Below, piece by piece: positions 9,768 to 54,698 of a stretch of DNA of 64,000 nucleotides. This DNA is from Chitinophaga lutea (GTDB lineage Bacteria; Bacteroidota; Bacteroidia; Chitinophagales; Chitinophagaceae): contig NZ_RPDH01000001.1 in NCBI RefSeq assembly GCF_003813775.1, positions 1,240,001 to 1,304,000 on the forward strand, given 5' to 3'. Every line of letters starts with the position of its first letter. The first letter of the stretch is position 1. The notes under the pieces were generated by a model that searched no databases, was not told the DNA's origin, and saw only the letters and a program-made list of their open reading frames with translations. Position numbers and translations under genes: made by a program.

Positions 9768-10232
9768 ATGGCAAAAAGACCGAATTATTTTCTCAGCATC
9801 CTGAAGATGAAATGCCCCCGGTGCCGGAAGGGTAATATGTACCGCACCAAGAATCCGTTCCACTGGCGCTTTTCCAGGATCTTCGACATGCACGACCGCT
9901 GCCCCGTCTGCGACCAGCAATTCGAGCTCGAAACCGGCTTCTGGTTCGGAACAGGTTATGTCAGCTATGCGCTGTCCGTAGCCCTCTCCGTATTCAACCT
10001 GATCTGGTACTGGTTCTTTTTTGGTATCTCCTGGCGGGATAACAGCATTTTTTACTGGCTGGCGGTGAACGGGGTAATACTGGTGCTGGTGCAACCCTGG
10101 TTGATGCGCATTTCACGCACGATATATCTGTATTTCTTCGTGTATTATGACGAAGAGACGGAGCGCCTGCCGGACACGGTTCATAAGCATGGTGAACACT
10201 CCCATCCGCATCCGGCAGGGCATTCACATTAA
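9768..10232 (+). CDS. DUF983 family membrane protein with zinc ribbon
   Basis: 154 residues. The N-terminal part has two Cys pairs, CPRCRKG (residues 18-24) and CPVC (around 45-48), forming a likely zinc ribbon, followed by FELETGFWFGTGYVSYALS. Two membrane helices follow, at about residues 66-88 and 96-115. The C-terminus is His-rich (HKHGEHSHPHPAGHSH). The family is uncharacterised; a metal-binding or respiratory-chain-related role has been suggested by context elsewhere, but nothing here proves it. A strong terminator follows. Confidence 0.85.
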   Translation: MAKRPNYFLSILKMKCPRCRKGNMYRTKNPFHWRFSRIFDMHDRCPVCDQQFELETGFWFGTGYVSYALSVALSVFNLIWYWFFFGISWRDNSIFYWLAVNGVILVLVQPWLMRISRTIYLYFFVYYDEETERLPDTVHKHGEHSHPHPAGHSH

Positions 10233-10258: not shown

Positions 10259-10283
10259 AAGGGCCGTAAAAACGGCCCTTTTT
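10259..10283 (+). terminator. Rho-independent terminator after the DUF983 gene
   Basis: AAGGGCCGT, an AAAA loop and ACGGCCCTT form a perfect 9-bp hairpin followed by a T run. It lies 26 bases after the stop codon. Confidence 0.88.
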
Positions 10284-10504: not shown

Positions 10505-10548
10505 TTTGCAACATCGATGCAAATATATAGATTTGCAACTTAGTTGCA
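10505..10548 (+). promoter_or_regulatory. Promoter of the AztD-like gene with two overlapping metal-type operators
   Basis: TTTG (10505-10508), a 19-base spacer and TAGATTTG (10528-10535) match the Bacteroidota consensus TTTG-N19-TAnnTTTG exactly. Two palindromes overlay it: GCAACATCGATGC (10508-10520, inside the wider arms TTTGCA/TGCAAA at 10505-10523) touches the -33 box, and TGCAACTTAGTTGCA (10534-10548) touches the -7 box and the expected start of transcription. Their equivalent positions are 27 bases apart. The second site has the same GCAACnnnGTTGC core as the site in front of the divergently placed receptor operon (15273-15285). A repressor of the Fur/Zur type is inferred; the protein is not encoded in the window. 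Confidence 0.72.
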
Positions 10549-10567
10549 CTTAAAATAACCTGACAAC

Positions 10568-11767
10568 ATGAAAAGATTACTAATTCCCGCGCTGGGCCTG
10601 GCTTTGATCATAGCAGGCTGCCGGAAGAACGACAAACCTGCTGACCCTGTTCAACCCGAAGCGGGCTACCTCCGCCTGGTGGTATCTGACGTAGACAAGG
10701 CCCAGATCACCGTGGTGGAGCCGCTTTCCAAAAAAACCACGGTGTACCCGGTGAAAGCCGCGCAACCCACCCTGTACGCCACCAGCACCGGCCAGTTTGC
10801 GGCCGTCCTCAGCAGAGCGGCCAACACGGTTGAGTTTTTCAATTCGGGCATTGAAAAGCACGGCGGGCACCTGCATGTGCACAACCCGGAAATGGCGGCA
10901 CAAAAATTCACGGAAGCCGGCCCCACCCACTTCTACGCCTACAACGGCCTCAATGCCATTTTCAACGACGGTACGGGCAGCCTCAGCCTGTTTAAAGACA
11001 GCGAGCTGGAAGGCGCGGCCGGCAAGGTACTGCCGGTGGCCACACCTCATCACGGCGCCATGGTCATTTTCGACGACCAGACGATTGCGGTGACGCAGAA
11101 AGACGGCTCGGTATCCGGCACCCTGCCGGAAAGGGTGAAGATCATCGACCGCTTCGGTACGGTACTGCACCAGTCCACCATCGCCACCAAAGGCATCCAT
11201 GGCGATGCGGGCAACGGTAAAACGGCGGCCTTCGGCAGCCCCGACGGCATCCTGCTGGTAGCGCAGAACGGCGAGCAGTCGCTCGTGCCCTACCCGGCGG
11301 ATTTCGGCACCGCCTGGATAGGCACCGTGCTCGGCAACAAGGCATTGCCGCACTTTTTCGGTTATGTATCGCTCGGCCTCTACAAAATCGACCCCGCCAC
11401 GAAAAAAATCACCCTGGTACTGAAAAACGAAAACAATAACATTCACCAGTACATGCTCGACGAAGAGGGCAAAAATCTTTATGTACTGCTCACCGACGGT
11501 ACGCTGAAAATATTCGACGCCGGCAGCGCACAGCTGAAAAAGGAAGGTAAGATAACAACGGCCATTCCCGCCGGCGCCACGGCCGCGCAGAAACCTTACT
11601 TCGCCGTATCGCGCAAATGCGTTTACGTGACCGACCAGGGCGCGGGCCATGTGAAAATGTTCGAAGCGGCCACGCTGCGCGAGCTCAGCGCCATCCCGGT
11701 GGGCAACAAACCATTCAAACTGATAGTAGTCGGCGACCAGGAAGGGCTCCAGGCCGGCGACGATTAA
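10568..11767 (+). CDS. AztD-like zinc-binding beta-propeller lipoprotein
   Basis: 399 residues. A lipoprotein signal peptide ends at IIAGC (Cys18). The body is a propeller-like repeat protein carrying the AztD pattern of conserved motifs: HGGHLHVH (residues 98-105), PTHFYAYNG (His121), IFNDGTG, PHHGAMV (His161-162), IHGDAG (His211) and FGSPDGILL. AztD is known in proteobacteria as a periplasmic zinc metallochaperone encoded with the AztABC transporter. Here there is no AztABC; the gene instead faces an operon with a ZnuD-like receptor. The signal suggests membrane anchoring rather than a soluble chaperone. Repression by a metal regulator is inferred from the two operators over its promoter. 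Zinc is the favoured ligand by homology only. Confidence 0.8.
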   Translation: MKRLLIPALGLALIIAGCRKNDKPADPVQPEAGYLRLVVSDVDKAQITVVEPLSKKTTVYPVKAAQPTLYATSTGQFAAVLSRAANTVEFFNSGIEKHGGHLHVHNPEMAAQKFTEAGPTHFYAYNGLNAIFNDGTGSLSLFKDSELEGAAGKVLPVATPHHGAMVIFDDQTIAVTQKDGSVSGTLPERVKIIDRFGTVLHQSTIATKGIHGDAGNGKTAAFGSPDGILLVAQNGEQSLVPYPADFGTAWIGTVLGNKALPHFFGYVSLGLYKIDPATKKITLVLKNENNNIHQYMLDEEGKNLYVLLTDGTLKIFDAGSAQLKKEGKITTAIPAGATAAQKPYFAVSRKCVYVTDQGAGHVKMFEAATLRELSAIPVGNKPFKLIVVGDQEGLQAGDD

Positions 11768-11823
11768 CTTGCTCCGGGGCCTACTGTCGGCCCGGTATTT
11801 TACCCCAGCTCACGCATAAAAAA

Positions 11824-11854
11824 GGACTGCCAAATCATTGGCAGTCCCTTTTTT
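11824..11854. terminator. Bidirectional terminator between the AztD-like gene and the converging lipoprotein gene
   Basis: GGACTGCCA (11824-11832) and TGGCAGTCC (11839-11847) form a perfect 9-bp stem. An A run precedes and a T run follows, so it can act on both strands, as expected between the converging genes ending at 11767 and 11875. Confidence 0.88.
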
Positions 11855-11874
11855 TCCCGGGTTTTCAGGAAATA

Positions 11875-12450
11875 TTATTTGATCTCCAGCGGGAACTCCG
11901 TGAGCACATCGGTGCTGCCGGGGCCGTAAGAGCCGTTTTTGTTGCCGGGCTGATGCCTTACCACCATCCGCAGATAACCGGTGAATGCGCCTTTGGTGGC
12001 CACGCTTACTTCCAGGCCGATGGGCAGGTTATTGCCGTCCTTATCGAGCGGCGTAACGGTAGCCACGGTGCTCAGTGAATCCTGCAGGTTGGCGTTGGCC
12101 TTGCTGAAAAAGAGGTGGAACAAACGGTGCTCGTCCGCTTCTTCTTCGATTTCATGCGTGATGGTATCGGCCGGGTTCTTGCGCTCGTCGAACAGTTCTG
12201 TCGAGAGGTTGTAGGTGGTATTGGCCTTTAACGTCACCTTCTCGATCACCGGATTGCCGGTGAGGTCTTTCCAGGTGGCCACCACCTTATCGGCTGCGTT
12301 GGCGGCGTTGGTGAACGTGAGCTTCACCGTCGTAATTTCTTCGTTGGCGTTCTCTGTCGGTGTTTCGTTCTTTTCTTTTTTGCAGGCGGCGAATAACAGT
12401 GCGGCGGCAGCGGCAAATACGGTCAGTCGAAGGTTCTTTTTCATACTCAT
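11875..12450 (-). CDS. Lipoprotein with acidic/His segment, partner of a metal-type TonB receptor
   Basis: 191 residues with a lipobox LLFAAC (Cys23) and a lysine- and glutamate-rich linker. Residues 100-112 read EIEEEADEHRLFH, a cluster of carboxylates and histidines able to bind a metal. The pattern, including TTVKLTF near the start and the EEEADEH segment, matches a Bacteroidota lipoprotein family often found beside TonB-dependent receptors and named after a periplasmic-binding-like fold in databases; I recall this from memory. The gene starts 16 bases after the receptor gene stop, so it is the last gene of the operon. Probable role: capture or hand-over of metal at the outer membrane. A start at residue 3 (MKKN) is possible. 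Confidence 0.72.
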   Translation of the reverse strand: MSMKKNLRLTVFAAAAALLFAACKKEKNETPTENANEEITTVKLTFTNAANAADKVVATWKDLTGNPVIEKVTLKANTTYNLSTELFDERKNPADTITHEIEEEADEHRLFHLFFSKANANLQDSLSTVATVTPLDKDGNNLPIGLEVSVATKGAFTGYLRMVVRHQPGNKNGSYGPGSTDVLTEFPLEIK

Positions 12451-12466
12451 TGTCGGTTATAATGTT

Positions 12467-14827
12467 TTAAATGGATGCTTTCTTTCCAAACTGGAGGGGC
12501 ATCTTTACTTTGAGATAAATGTTACGGCCCGGCTCGTCCGCGAAGTAGCGGAAGAAGTTCAGGTAATCGCGGTACCGGGTGTTCAGCAGGTTGGCAGCGC
12601 CGAGAATAAACGACACGGGCTGCTTGCCGAAATGCACCGTACTGCCGGCTTCCAAACCCACCAGCGTGTACCCGGAGGGCGGCGCCAGCAGGTCCTGGCC
12701 GCGTGGATCGTTTTTGTCCTGGAGGTTCGCGGGCGTGCGTGTCTGCTTCAGCACGTTACTAACGCTAACGGATATATAATTTTCCTTAAACGCTTTGTAG
12801 TTCCCCGGCGTAAAACTCAGCTCGTTCTCGAACCGGTCGGCGGGCATATTGATCAGCCAGTCGTTATCGGTTTCGTTGTAAGCCCGCAGAATGGAGGCTT
12901 TGGAAGTGAGCTGCCATTTCGGGAGGAACTGCCAGCGCACCTGCGCGTCCATGCCTTTCATGGTGACGTCGGACTGGCGGTAAAACGTGTAAGGGAACGC
13001 ACCGCGGATGGTGACCACGATACTGTCTGTCGGCTGCTGGAAAATGAAGTTGCTGATGTGGTTGTAATACAGGTTCACATCTGCCTCCAGTTTGTCGCTG
13101 ATATCGTAGTGCAGGGTGGTGTTGAACTTGGCGGCGTCTTCCGGTTTCAGGTACGGATCGCCGTCCACATACACCGCCGCGCCGTGGTGCAGGCCGGTGG
13201 CATACAGTTCGTTCACACCGGGCGGGCGCCAGGCGCGGGCGGCATTCACCGACACGTGAAAGTTATCGGTAACGCGGTATTGTGCGCCGAGCGAGCCGGA
13301 GATGCTGGCATAATCCTGTTCGGGATAATGGATCGCACCGGCGTTGTCGCCCAGGTTATAGTACTGTTTGTTGTCGTAGCGGATACCGCCTTCCACCAGC
13401 CATTGCTGGTTGGCGCTTTCCCATTTCTCCGTCCAGAACGCCCCCCATTGCAGGCTCTCGTAATTCGGGATAAAAAGCCTGCTGCGGTAGCTGTTCTCCT
13501 GGTAGGTGCCGGTAGCGCCGACGGTGCCGCGCAGCCCTTTCCAGCTGAAATGATCCCAGAGCAACTCAGCGTTGTAGGTGGTGAGATTCAGGTTCATTTT
13601 GTTGACGGAGAGGGCGGATTTACGGTCCAGCTCATCGCGGTAATTGAACTGGCGGGCCAGCACCAGGTTGAGGCGGCCGGCTTTCCCGGTGTTCAGGTAA
13701 CTTTTGATTTTGAACAGCTCGTGCTCCACATGCTGGTATGGCCTTTCGATATCATATGAAAACCCTTCGGTGAATTCCGGCAGGGGGCGCTGTTGTTTGA
13801 TCACGTTGTCGAGGTCTTCGCGGTTGCCGATGTGGGAACCTTCGAATACGCCGAGGTTGGTGTTGAACTGACTGTAGAACAGTTCAACGCCGTACTGCGG
13901 TTTTTTCCAGCCGATGGCGCCGGAGAAATTGTATTCCTCCACGCCGGTATTATCGAGCCAGTAATCCGGCGTTTTTACGTTGCCGCCTTTGCGCAGCGTA
14001 CCCTGCAACCGCCAGCTGAGGCCCGGCAGTTTGGGCACCTGCTGTTCGATGATGGCCGACACGGCGCCCAGCCTGTTGTTGGAAAAACCGGCGAAGTTCA
14101 CCTCACCGCCGAGGCCCGGCGTTACGGGCAGCGCTTTCGGTTCCACGAGCACCACGCCGCCGATCGCATCGCCACCGTAGCGAAGCGCGCCCGCGCCTTT
14201 GATCACCACCATTTTATTGGCGAGGAACGGGTCCACTTCCGGCGCATGTTCCGAGCCCCATTGCTGGCCTTCCTGGCGGATGCCGTTGTTGAGGATCAGC
14301 ACGCGGTTGCTGTGCAGGCCGTTGATCACGGGCTTGGATACGTTCGGCCCGGTGGTGAGCGAGGTAACGCCGTTCACTTTTTTCAGCGCTTCCCCGAGCG
14401 TGAGCCCCCTCGTTTTTTCCAGTTCCTTCCCGCTGAGTGATTCTACCGGCGCGGTGGTCACTTCTTTGGCGGCGTGACCGGTAACGGCCACTTCCTGCAA
14501 CTGCGTGACGCTGTGCGGCAGGGAGATATTACGGCGCTCGTCTGCACTCACCTGCCAGGCTACTTCCACCGGCAGGCAGCCGATGTGGCTGATGTGAAGG
14601 GTATAAAAACCCGGACAAAGCCCTTCCAGCCGGTAAACGCCTTTGTCGTCGCTTTTGACGGAGAGCCCGTTCTCCTTGATAACGATGGTGGCGCCCGGCA
14701 GTGGCTGTTTCGTTTCACTGTCGGTAACCGTCCCGCTCAAACGGATGGTACATTGCGCACTGGCGGCCGCTGCAAACATCAATTGCATCAACACTGCCGC
14801 CCATGCGATTTTTTTAATCACTTGCAT
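12467..14827 (-). CDS. TonB-dependent receptor, ZnuD-like metal uptake type
   Basis: 786 residues: signal peptide (MQLMFAAAASAQ), a CarboxypepD_reg-like domain (about residues 28-105), a TonB plug (about 115-225, with NGLHSNRVLILNNGIRQEG and GAGALRYGGDAIGG), and a 22-strand barrel ending with LKVKMPLQFGKKASI. Motifs fit the ZnuD group of zinc receptors: WGSEHAPEVDPF in the plug and NELYATGLHHGAAVYVDGDPYLKPE-like loop near residue 547, with a His pair exposed outside. It imports its substrate across the outer membrane using TonB energy. It is the middle gene of a three-gene operon and its neighbours are His-rich. Zinc is the best guess; another transition metal cannot be excluded. Confidence 0.85.
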   Translation of the reverse strand: MQVIKKIAWAAVLMQLMFAAAASAQCTIRLSGTVTDSETKQPLPGATIVIKENGLSVKSDDKGVYRLEGLCPGFYTLHISHIGCLPVEVAWQVSADERRNISLPHSVTQLQEVAVTGHAAKEVTTAPVESLSGKELEKTRGLTLGEALKKVNGVTSLTTGPNVSKPVINGLHSNRVLILNNGIRQEGQQWGSEHAPEVDPFLANKMVVIKGAGALRYGGDAIGGVVLVEPKALPVTPGLGGEVNFAGFSNNRLGAVSAIIEQQVPKLPGLSWRLQGTLRKGGNVKTPDYWLDNTGVEEYNFSGAIGWKKPQYGVELFYSQFNTNLGVFEGSHIGNREDLDNVIKQQRPLPEFTEGFSYDIERPYQHVEHELFKIKSYLNTGKAGRLNLVLARQFNYRDELDRKSALSVNKMNLNLTTYNAELLWDHFSWKGLRGTVGATGTYQENSYRSRLFIPNYESLQWGAFWTEKWESANQQWLVEGGIRYDNKQYYNLGDNAGAIHYPEQDYASISGSLGAQYRVTDNFHVSVNAARAWRPPGVNELYATGLHHGAAVYVDGDPYLKPEDAAKFNTTLHYDISDKLEADVNLYYNHISNFIFQQPTDSIVVTIRGAFPYTFYRQSDVTMKGMDAQVRWQFLPKWQLTSKASILRAYNETDNDWLINMPADRFENELSFTPGNYKAFKENYISVSVSNVLKQTRTPANLQDKNDPRGQDLLAPPSGYTLVGLEAGSTVHFGKQPVSFILGAANLLNTRYRDYLNFFRYFADEPGRNIYLKVKMPLQFGKKASI

Positions 14828-14897
14828 GTGTACAGAAGATCATTGGCAGCCTGTGCTGCCGGCAATAAAATCAGATAAAATACCGGATGAGATGGGG

Positions 14898-15230
14898 TTA
14901 CGCATGCGGGGGAGCGCGCAGGGAAAAGTAATAAGCGGGATATGAAAAAATGTGCAGCGGCAGCGTTTGGCTAAGCGTTGCATATTCGTGTGGCGTGGCG
15001 GGGACGGCTGTGTGATATCCCGGAAGATAGGCTTCCACTTCCCAGTGCAGCCATTCGCAGTGCTGGTGTTGGCCGGAGAGCACGGGCCCGTCCGTGTACA
15101 CCAGGTTACAGGCTTCGTCGATGGTATCTTCGTGCCCCACAAAATGGTGCACATAATCCCTGGGCGTAATGTATAAACAAAACACGCCCAGCAGTAAAAT
15201 GGCTCCTATTTGTTGGAAAAATTGCTTCAC
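14898..15230 (-). CDS. Small exported His-rich protein, first gene of the metal receptor operon
   Basis: 110 residues starting with GTG at 15230. An N-terminal hydrophobic segment (QIGAILLLGVFCLYIT) acts as signal or anchor. It is followed by DYVHHFVGHEDT and, after a gap, QHQHCEWLHWEVEAY, giving many possible His/Cys metal ligands. Small proteins with this HHF-xGH-DT and HxHC layout recur next to TonB receptors in Bacteroidota, in my memory of the family, but have no assigned function. The promoter 18 bases upstream of the start carries the GCAACnnnGTTGC operator. I infer periplasmic metal binding or sensing. The short length and GTG start make the exact start less certain. Confidence 0.7.
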   Translation of the reverse strand: MKQFFQQIGAILLLGVFCLYITPRDYVHHFVGHEDTIDEACNLVYTDGPVLSGQHQHCEWLHWEVEAYLPGYHTAVPATPHEYATLSQTLPLHIFSYPAYYFSLRAPPHA

Positions 15231-15247
15231 CTGCCTGGTTTAGAAGG

Positions 15248-15285
15248 CAAAGATACATAAAATCGAAGGATTGCAACATTGTTGC
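15248..15285 (-). promoter_or_regulatory. Promoter of the receptor operon with an overlapping GCAACnnnGTTGC operator
   Basis: On the minus strand TATCTTTG (15255-15248) is a good TAnnTTTG -7 element, and TTG (15276-15274) lies 18 bases upstream as the -33 element. The palindrome GCAACATTGTTGC at 15273-15285 covers that -33 box. The same 5+5 palindrome occurs at the AztD-like gene promoter 4.7 kb away. Binding would block RNA polymerase, so repression when metal is plentiful is inferred. Confidence 0.7.
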
Positions 15286-40587: not shown

Positions 40588-41154
40588 TTACGATGGATAC
40601 CATGTTAACACAGCCAAGGCTTCCTTTTTTTCTCCACCCGGCATCAAAAACCAGTTAGTTGTTAGATTTAAACTTAAAAAGCTTTTCCCAGTAAGATACC
40701 ATTCATAAAAACTCAGGGTTTCCAAACATCTCAAACAGTCATCTTCAACATCATCGCTTGCGGAAGCCCCACCTGCGATATAAAAGCATCCTAAAGACGC
40801 AACCATGTTGCGAAGGATACCGGCCTTATAGTAACAAACAATCTGCATTGCGTTGATTTTGCCTTCCTCATTGACTTTAATGAAAAAACCTGCCACTTTT
40901 AAATGAAACACAGAATCATGGCGTGCTCCTGCCGGCAAGTAGTAATTCACACTTTTATCATATGCAATTGATTTCAGCTTCGCATTATCCGGTTGAATTT
41001 CTATTTGCCTTGCATGCTGAATTGAATCTATCGATTGTCCAAGCTCAATACCCTGAAAAGCCCTTTTAAAAAGTTCTGATTGTTGCGCAAATGCAACATC
41101 GGAAACAAAAAAGCTCCCTAAAACAACCCAAAAATTAAAAAAAACCGCTTTCAT
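40588..41154 (-). CDS. Hypothetical secreted protein
   Basis: 188 residues with a signal peptide (MKAVFFNFWVVLGSFFVSDVAFAQ). The body has two Cys (DDCLRCLE) and ends in a Trp-rich strand region. No domain is recognised. Its start overlaps the end of the upstream gene by 20 bases, so the two are translated together. It lies in the AT-rich accessory region. Confidence 0.6.
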   Translation of the reverse strand: MKAVFFNFWVVLGSFFVSDVAFAQQSELFKRAFQGIELGQSIDSIQHARQIEIQPDNAKLKSIAYDKSVNYYLPAGARHDSVFHLKVAGFFIKVNEEGKINAMQIVCYYKAGILRNMVASLGCFYIAGGASASDDVEDDCLRCLETLSFYEWYLTGKSFLSLNLTTNWFLMPGGEKKEALAVLTWYPS

Positions 41155-53333: not shown

Positions 53334-54698
53334 TTACAATGCCAGGTGATCGAGGATGATGTTATGCACATCGGTAGCCACCACGTTGCTTTTCACGGGT
53401 TGCGTGGTGATGAGCACGGGATGGTCTTTGGCGTTCTCCGCGATGCGGCCGTGAGATCCCCGGATGAGGGTGGCGTCCAGCGGGATCACATCCATCAGGT
53501 AACGGAAGCCCAGTTTCTTTTTGAGCACCTTCCCGATCACTTTCAGTTTCACCAGCGGGTCGGCGGGGTTGAGAAACATCTCCACGGGGTCGTAACCGGG
53601 CTTGCGGTGAATGTCTACGATGCGCGCGAAGTCGGGCGCTTTGGCATCGTCGAGCCAGTAATAATACGTGAACCAGCTTTCGGCGTCCGCTACCAGCACG
53701 AGGTCGCCGCTGCGCTCGTGGTGCAGGTGATGCGTGCGCTTGCCGTCGCGGTCGAGCACCAGTTCCACGCCGGGCACCTGTTCCATCAGTTCGCGCACCT
53801 GCCGGTAGCACGAGCGGTCGTTGATATATACATGAGCGAACTGGTGATCCGCCACCACGAAAGCCCTGGAAGCGCCCGCATCGAGCAGCTCGAGGCCGCG
53901 CTCCACGCGCACGGACAGCAGCCCTTTTTCGCGCAGCAGGCGGTTGAGGTGGATGGGACGGCTCACGTTGGTGATGCCATATTCGGATAATATGATGATT
54001 TCGCAACCCTGCTTTTCATAATGCTCTACGATCTGCCGGCAGAGCTTGTCGACCGCCTGCAGCTCGGGCGCTATTTTCGTGTAATCGTGTCCGTATTTCT
54101 GCAGGCAATAATCGAGGTGCGGCAGGTAGATCAGCGTCAGGTTCGGGTTATGCCATTTGTCTGTAAGGATGGACGCATCGGCGATCCACTGGGAAGAAAC
54201 GATGTTGGCGCCGGGGCCCCAGAACTGGAAAAGCGGGAACTGCCCGAGCGCTTGCTGCAACTCATCGCGCAGCGATGCGGGATGCGAATAACAGTCGGGC
54301 ATTTTGCGGCCGTCGGATAAATACTGCGGGCGCGGCGTTACGGAGAAGTCGGCGCTGGAGTACATGTTGTACCACCAGAACATTTTCGAACAGGTGAAAC
54401 CGGGGTGCAGGCGCCGGGCTTGCTCCCACACTTTGTCGCCCTGCACGAGGTGATTGGATTGTTTCCAGAATTTGATCTCGGCATCCGTTCTGTCGTACCA
54501 GCCATTCCCCACAATCCCGTGCTCGCTGGGCCATTGCCCGGTGAGGTAGGTAGATTGCACGGCGGTGGTCACTGCCGGCAGCATCGGTGCAATGGTGGAC
54601 TGATGGTGCTTTTTTGCAAATGCCGCCAGGAATGGTGTATGTTCGCCAACCAGCGTTGCAGAGAGGCCTACAACGTCTAATACCACAGTTTTTCTCAT
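53334..54698 (-). CDS. eboF: EboF-type alkaline phosphatase-like phosphodiesterase
   Basis: 454 residues of the nucleotide pyrophosphatase/phosphodiesterase fold. The nucleophile Thr lies in TAVQSTYLTGQWPSEHGIVGNGW, the substrate-side pattern IYLPHLDYCLQKYGHD follows, and RGSHGRI provides a C-terminal His. The metal motif usually written DHG reads SEYGI here. It is the last gene of the six-gene ebo cluster. In ebo clusters this member is annotated as alkaline phosphatase family; its substrate is unknown. Gap to eboE is 45 bases. Confidence 0.85.
   Translation of the reverse strand: MRKTVVLDVVGLSATLVGEHTPFLAAFAKKHHQSTIAPMLPAVTTAVQSTYLTGQWPSEHGIVGNGWYDRTDAEIKFWKQSNHLVQGDKVWEQARRLHPGFTCSKMFWWYNMYSSADFSVTPRPQYLSDGRKMPDCYSHPASLRDELQQALGQFPLFQFWGPGANIVSSQWIADASILTDKWHNPNLTLIYLPHLDYCLQKYGHDYTKIAPELQAVDKLCRQIVEHYEKQGCEIIILSEYGITNVSRPIHLNRLLREKGLLSVRVERGLELLDAGASRAFVVADHQFAHVYINDRSCYRQVRELMEQVPGVELVLDRDGKRTHHLHHERSGDLVLVADAESWFTYYYWLDDAKAPDFARIVDIHRKPGYDPVEMFLNPADPLVKLKVIGKVLKKKLGFRYLMDVIPLDATLIRGSHGRIAENAKDHPVLITTQPVKSNVVATDVHNIILDHLAL

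Follow-up and report, generated by a model that had tools for sequence, protein, structure and literature searches.

Three copies of one palindrome lie over two promoters of Chitinophaga lutea, ahead of a gene for a putative zinc chaperone and ahead of an operon with a TonB-dependent receptor. The question raised by this arrangement is whether the palindrome is an operator, and if so, which regulator and which metal it serves. The window, a stretch of 64,000 nucleotides, corresponds to C1:1240001-1304000 of a genome whose four contigs total 6.61 Mb. The features discussed below are the following.

10505..10508, + strand: -33 box TTTG of the aztD-like promoter, read from the sequence
10508..10520, + strand: putative Zur-box-like operator, copy 1, with one mismatch to GCAACNNNGTTGC, covering the -33 box
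10528..10535, + strand: -7 element TAGATTTG of the aztD-like promoter, read from the sequence
10535..10547, + strand: putative Zur-box-like operator, copy 2, an exact GCAACNNNGTTGC whose first base is the final G of the -7 element
10568..11767, + strand: putative AztD-like zinc chaperone and lipoprotein of 399 aa, assigned from NCBIfam and solved relatives
11875..12450, - strand: putative lipoprotein of 191 aa, gene 3 of the receptor operon, 16 bp past the receptor gene, with no Pfam match
12467..14827, - strand: TonB-dependent receptor of 786 aa, ZnuD/heme-receptor type (PF00593, PF07715)
14898..15230, - strand: His-rich small protein of 110 aa, gene 1 of the receptor operon, an open reading frame with no family match
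15248..15255, - strand: -7 element TATCTTTG of the receptor operon promoter, read from the sequence
15273..15285, - strand: putative Zur-box-like operator of the receptor operon, an exact GCAACNNNGTTGC covering the -33 region

Operators, promoters and genes in the window

The three copies of GCAAC-N3-GTTGC named in the original prediction were recovered, with exact matches at 10535-10547 and 15273-15285 and one mismatch at 10508-10520. The two units had been called divergent; the aztD-like unit and the receptor operon are convergent. The promoter consensus is TTTG-N19-TAnnTTTG. The aztD-like promoter has the predicted geometry of TTTG, 19 bases and TAGATTTG, with one operator copy on each core element, and both copies open with the final G of a TTTG box. 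In the receptor operon promoter, the site was said to cover the -33 box, and the box does lie inside the palindrome, but it reads only GTTG-N18. A sigma-70 style promoter scan, a model unsuited to this phylum, finds nothing at the operator sites. An arrangement with two boxes on one promoter that cover both core elements is known from Streptomyces znuA and Bacillus yciC as well (PMC6103462, in part).

Further matches in the window are an exact one at 40799, inside an open reading frame, and one with a single mismatch at 53377. The count of five at no more than one mismatch compares with a shuffle mean of 3.71, and at least five occur in 34 of 100 shuffles. Enrichment by count was therefore dropped as evidence, and the signal comes from where the copies lie and how well they are conserved.

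The AztD-like protein matches the NCBIfam AztD model NF038015 with an E-value of 8e-34 and 116.9 bits, below the cut-off of 400. Its solved relatives are 6ck1 (E 7.6e-29) and 6cmk, labelled 'AztD protein' (E 3.5e-27, residues 34-391), so that a solved AztD aligns over most of its length. Zinc site 2 of AztD is formed by His99, His102, Asp104 and a C-terminal His (PMC6689063, in part). The Paracoccus motif His99-Gly-x-His102 has its counterparts in the window protein, a His corresponds to Asp104, and the C-terminal His is absent. Just upstream lies a gene for a DUF983 protein with a His-rich tail (9768-10232, + strand), which has no site of its own and is separated from the AztD-like gene by a terminator-like hairpin at 10259-10280.

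The best solved match of the receptor is ZnuD (4rdr, E 6.2e-13; best stretch residues 123-289). It scores 193.8 bits with TIGR01785, below the cut-off of 316.85, and 113.7 bits with the ZnuD family NF038289, short of the cut-off of 950. We thus call it ZnuD-like only in the sense of its best solved match. All four genes had been expected to have His-rich or metal-receptor features, which fails for the 191-aa lipoprotein. At another locus (L077), relatives of this lipoprotein and of the 110-aa protein are found downstream of a site.

The palindrome across the genome and its relatives

The whole genome contains nine exact places, compared with three for the reversed pattern, and six of the nine are promoter sites, belonging to six units. 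Two are the sites of aztD and of the operon for the 110-aa protein, TonB receptor and lipoprotein. Another two both lie between a gene for a MerC-like protein and a divergent operon that encodes an ABC ATPase, a His-rich permease and a weakly DUF3299-like protein (E 0.009, below the cut-off), together a MacB-like ABC system. We take PA4066 of Pseudomonas aeruginosa to be a DUF3299 protein. The fifth site precedes genes for a 115-aa Cys/His protein and a second TonB receptor on C3, and the sixth precedes an FAD oxidoreductase gene on C2. A seventh unit has a one-mismatch copy before a relative of the 115-aa protein (C2:400498). The regulon is thus larger than the compact one first envisaged. 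The oxidoreductase gene probably belongs to the regulon, because in two genomes of another genus (L078, L079) its relative and a Zur relative flank a site.

The remaining three exact places, which are in coding DNA, in a hairpin before a P-type ATPase gene and in a repeat tract, look like background. Six one-mismatch places (L020, L025, L028, L030, L032, L035) were rejected as operators; all have a repetitive tail with GGTATCTACGCTTCATCTA in common. They belong to a dispersed repeat on C1, C2 and C3 that starts with TTGCAACAYAATTGCA or a close form and continues with GGTATCTACGCTTCATCTA and similar words. This repeat is a decoy in operator searches and is possibly REP-like. One more one-mismatch place, L034, was counted neither as an operator nor as one of these decoys. 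A relaxed scan with TTGCAACNNNGTTGCA at up to two mismatches gives 64 forward places and 40 control places on the + reading, and was too noisy to be used beyond one mismatch.

The FAD/NAD(P) oxidoreductase (L015:5869-6786) has a CPYC motif. The two related 115-aa envelope-type proteins downstream of a box (L016:5941-6288 and L031:1161-1508) have His and C-x-I-C-D-H motifs. Neither has a Pfam match, nor does the one from L016:5941-6288 match NCBIfam, and they are candidates for a new metal-binding family.

The single ZIP gene (C2:2113k) has no site nearby at up to one mismatch. The ZnuA family (PF01297, the one solute-binding family covered) has no match in the genome, and the same search is positive in 11 of 14 control genomes; it likewise finds no AztC, the ZnuA-family partner expected for an AztD-like protein. 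The usual, though not required, Zur target znuABC was therefore not found in this genome. The content of Zur regulons differs between species (PMC8561739, in part).

Orthologues of the AztD-like protein occur in four named Chitinophaga genomes at 73-84% identity, the closest being that of Chitinophaga alhagiae (84%). An exact core precedes the orthologue in all four, and in three a second, one-mismatch copy lies 27 bp upstream of it, as in the window. When the five aztD promoters are aligned, TTTGCAAC.T.GTTGCAC is invariant. All four loci have another exact core 3.5-3.7 kb past the end of the AztD gene, which agrees with the position of the receptor operon. More distant homologues in the genus have no site (L184) or two one-mismatch copies and no exact one (L183). 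Within the family, AztD is found in 5 of 147 genomes at E <= 1e-3, with three strong matches that include this genome.

The receptor has matches at E <= 1e-100 in 21 of 60 Chitinophaga genomes, this one included. At identities of at least 60%, an exact upstream site is present at 12 of 12 loci, again counting its own, a set of closer relatives not independent of one another. Over all receptor loci, the upstream site is exact in 14 of 21 and has at most one mismatch in 21 of 21; the reversed pattern gives no exact match and two at one mismatch.

MerC orthologues are still more widespread, in 57 of the 60 Chitinophaga genomes. An exact site is present at 30 of 30 MerC loci examined, own included; these loci were taken best match first, and they too are closer relatives and not independent of one another. 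The reversed control is never exact there and comes within one mismatch at two loci. Opposite MerC, the site is flanked by SCO1-zur at 17 of the 30 loci and by the ABC operon at the other 13; on the side of MerC, 28 of the 30 have a ZigA relative. The ZigA-type GTPase scores 544.5 bits for a cut-off of 600. In this genome, the 0.8-kb gap between the MerC and ZigA genes has no site at up to two mismatches, so regulon membership of ZigA rests on the relatives.

The MerC and ZigA genes are close together in most relatives. The gap between them in this genome (L011:5994-6789) has no clear open reading frame and contains successive similar words of 60-70 bp (CCTGTAAACCGGGTT...), which may be an inserted tandem repeat. 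Eleven MerC loci (L111-L117, L129, L132, L133, L137) have a pair of sites no more than 200 bp apart when one mismatch is allowed. In all of them the palindromes are exactly 82 bp apart, and of the 69 letters between them only 29 to 57 are common with this genome. The constant spacing might reflect a fixed promoter geometry or paired binding.

Among the best 30 zur loci, a site within 1.5 kb is exact in 16, has one mismatch in one and is absent from 13, and the reversed control has none at up to one mismatch. The operator is linked to zur in relatives, but not in this genome: its own zur (L081), one of the 13, has no site at up to one mismatch within 1.5 kb.

A count of the 17-mer over 147 family genomes, with up to one mismatch, gives 308 places, compared with 54 for the reversed pattern; forward matches are in excess in 112 genomes and reversed ones in 7. 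Thirty of these family loci were examined. A relative of a regulon gene is near the site in 19 (own included) and not in the other 11, and a Zur relative is within 1.5 kb in 14. In a second Bacteroidota family (f35), the site lies between zur and merC in two genomes (L151, L152). A follow-up search of 61 f35 genomes with the f35 Zur matched 12. For 6 of 6 strong orthologues (E <= 1e-33), the zur match has an exact site no more than 100 bp away; only four of these cases are independent, because G567 and G382 prompted this search. Weak, partial matches (E 2.8e-4 to 1e-3) have a site at up to one mismatch in 0 of 6. The exact 17-mer is rare across the phylum, in 21 of 395 genomes (two of them of the family) and about five for the control, and zur, MerC or the oxidoreductase is near in 4 of 19 loci outside the family.

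A candidate Zur and competing explanations

The genome encodes one Fur-family protein (PF01475), of 142 aa, at C1:1876685-1877110. Its gene directly follows an SCO1/SenC gene (PF02630) and lies approximately 3.4 kb from the double MerC/ABC site. The best solved matches are E. coli Zur (4mtd, E 3.5e-7) and 2o03 (E 6.1e-7), labelled 'probable zinc uptake regulation protein FurB', followed by weaker Fur and PerR matches. The zinc ligands of both sites of E. coli Zur are known (PMC4219657, in part). Site-B residues H77, C88 and H96 correspond to H70, C84 and H94 of the Chitinophaga protein, and site-A residues C103, C106, C143 and C146 correspond to C102, C105, C138 and C141. Three of the four sensing-site residues therefore have counterparts; the fourth, E111, faces a gap in the alignment. 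All 39 aligned relatives conserve H70, C84 and all four site-A cysteines, and 31 of the 39 have H94. The genome thus has a Fur-family regulator with the main Zur zinc ligands. With the NCBI Zur equivalog NF008646 the protein scores 37 bits, which does not reach the cut-off of 167. Its relatives are named ferric uptake regulators in some sources, mainly JGI; NCBI names are neutral.

The palindrome, approximately TTGCAAC-N3-GTTGCAA, is very probably the operator of this protein and the Zur box of Chitinophagaceae; we infer binding, repression and the metal from comparative sequence data. A palindromic operator lies on promoters of zinc-type uptake genes and is conserved in their orthologues. The metal regulon under a Zur-type repressor that the original prediction put forward is backed by the conserved sites, the linkage to zur, the zinc-type genes and the conserved zinc ligands. 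The target genes, namely an AztD-like protein, a receptor whose best solved match is ZnuD, and a ZigA-type GTPase, appear to fit zinc.

When zinc is replete, a zinc-loaded Zur dimer would sit on the palindrome over the TTTG promoter boxes and block RNA polymerase. In zinc shortage, Zur would be released, and the ZnuD-like TonB receptors, the AztD-like chaperone and the small His/Cys envelope proteins would be made, as would the MerC-like membrane protein, with the ZigA-type zinc GTPase adjoining, and the MacB-like ABC system.

An accidental likeness of two promoters, with the word at its expected frequency, would account for a window count no higher than in shuffles, and the genome has nine places to three for the control and six one-mismatch decoy repeats. 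Against it, orthologous promoters conserve the site in 4 of 4 cases for aztD, 12 of 12 for the receptor and 30 of 30 for MerC, so that chance is scarcely credible. Another dimeric regulator of metal genes that happen to lie beside zur might bind the palindrome, and would suit a genome whose own zur has no site. This too is most improbable: the site immediately precedes zur for 6 of 6 strong f35 orthologues and 0 of 6 weak matches, SCO1-zur or the ABC operon is opposite MerC at every site examined, and an identical box is predicted for Desulfovibrio zur_D (PMC545781, in part).

The alternative with slightly more to recommend it, albeit an unlikely one, is that the palindrome responds to iron, the sole Fur-family protein being either a genuine Fur or a metal sensor of broad range. 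Relatives are called ferric uptake regulators in some sources, the best family score of the receptor is with a heme/hemoglobin receptor model (below its cut-off), and no second Fur-family protein was found in the genome to act as Fur. Zinc is favored by the counterpart of E. coli Zur C88, kept in 39 of 39 relatives, and by the two best solved relatives, which are Zur-type although weaker Fur and PerR matches exist. ZnuD is the best solved match of the receptor, ZigA and AztD are zinc proteins, and the identical palindrome is at znuABC in Desulfovibrio (PMC545781, in part). Should the only Fur-family protein found be Zur, iron would have to be regulated by a protein of some other type.

Under regulation by Zur, one of the target genes could provide zinc entry at the inner membrane. 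MerC is a family named for mercury resistance. Because the site before MerC is so constant, the MerC-like protein is our best candidate for an importer in zinc shortage. A tentative and somewhat doubtful extension is that zinc is scavenged without a ZnuA-dependent ABC importer: ZnuD-like receptors and the AztD-like chaperone would feed a MerC-like zinc-starvation importer, ZigA would distribute the metal, and the Zur-MerC pair, with its common operator, would represent an ancient core of zinc acquisition for some Bacteroidota.

Relation to known Zur systems

The system appears to be of a known kind, a Zur regulon, in a group for which none was found described. What would be new is a Zur box in Bacteroidota and a regulon in a genome where no ZnuA-family protein was found. 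The regulon had been thought undescribed. This holds in that no Bacteroidota report was found, but Desulfovibrio Zur already has this palindrome as its predicted box. No Bacteroidota Zur box is among the literature matches listed, a set outside which fall RegPrecise entries, subscription papers and supplements, so its absence is unproven. In word searches, 'Bacteroid' does not occur in the Zur reviews PMC6103462 and PMC8000910, and the text of PMC9123166 has no Zur. RegPrecise 3.0 covers Zur across more than 25 taxonomic groups, with Bacteroidaceae among its collections (PMC3840689, in part).

These results provide a testable candidate Zur operator for a little-studied branch of the Bacteroidota, and suggest that proteins labelled ferric uptake regulators in this branch are zinc repressors. 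They also name candidate zinc-starvation genes, foremost those for the MerC-like protein and the small His/Cys envelope proteins. The Desulfovibrio box, a prediction to date, is now tied to a distant phylum.

That box, ATGCAACnnnGTTGCAT, was predicted in 2004 in two Desulfovibrio genomes at znuABC-zur (PMC545781, in part). Its arms and 3-base spacer are identical to those described here, and it is likewise upstream of zinc uptake genes and zur. In contrast to the Desulfovibrio box before znuABC-zur, the Chitinophaga box belongs to Bacteroidota and to a genome with no ZnuA-family protein found, and the likeness drawn here concerns the box (PMC545781, in part).

AztABCD of Paracoccus denitrificans has the AztD-like protein in common with Chitinophaga, and aztD is Zur-controlled in Paracoccus; unlike in that system, the Chitinophaga gene is solitary, without a ZnuA-family partner (PMC6689063, in part). 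PgFur of Porphyromonas gingivalis is also a Bacteroidota Fur-family protein, which binds zinc and does not bind the E. coli Fur box. It differs in being called a novel Fur subfamily tied to growth on iron and heme, and the sections consulted, on whose description this likeness is based, mention no GCAAC palindrome (PMC6613475, in part).

The Chitinophaga ABC operon resembles PA4063-PA4066 of Pseudomonas aeruginosa in gene content, since these Zur-regulated genes encode a MacB-like ABC ATPase and permease and small periplasmic proteins; it differs in the His-rich loop of its permease and in its weak DUF3299 match (PMC8561739, in part). In Caulobacter crescentus, the box type searched was GTTA-N5-TAAC, and ZrpW has six transmembrane domains, both of which set that system apart (PMC4176598, in part). 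Caulobacter Zur nevertheless controls TonB receptors and a membrane protein that is likely cotranscribed with a CobW-type GTPase (zrpW-zrpX), a pair that resembles MerC and ZigA of Chitinophaga, and in both organisms the operators overlap promoter elements (PMC4176598, in part).
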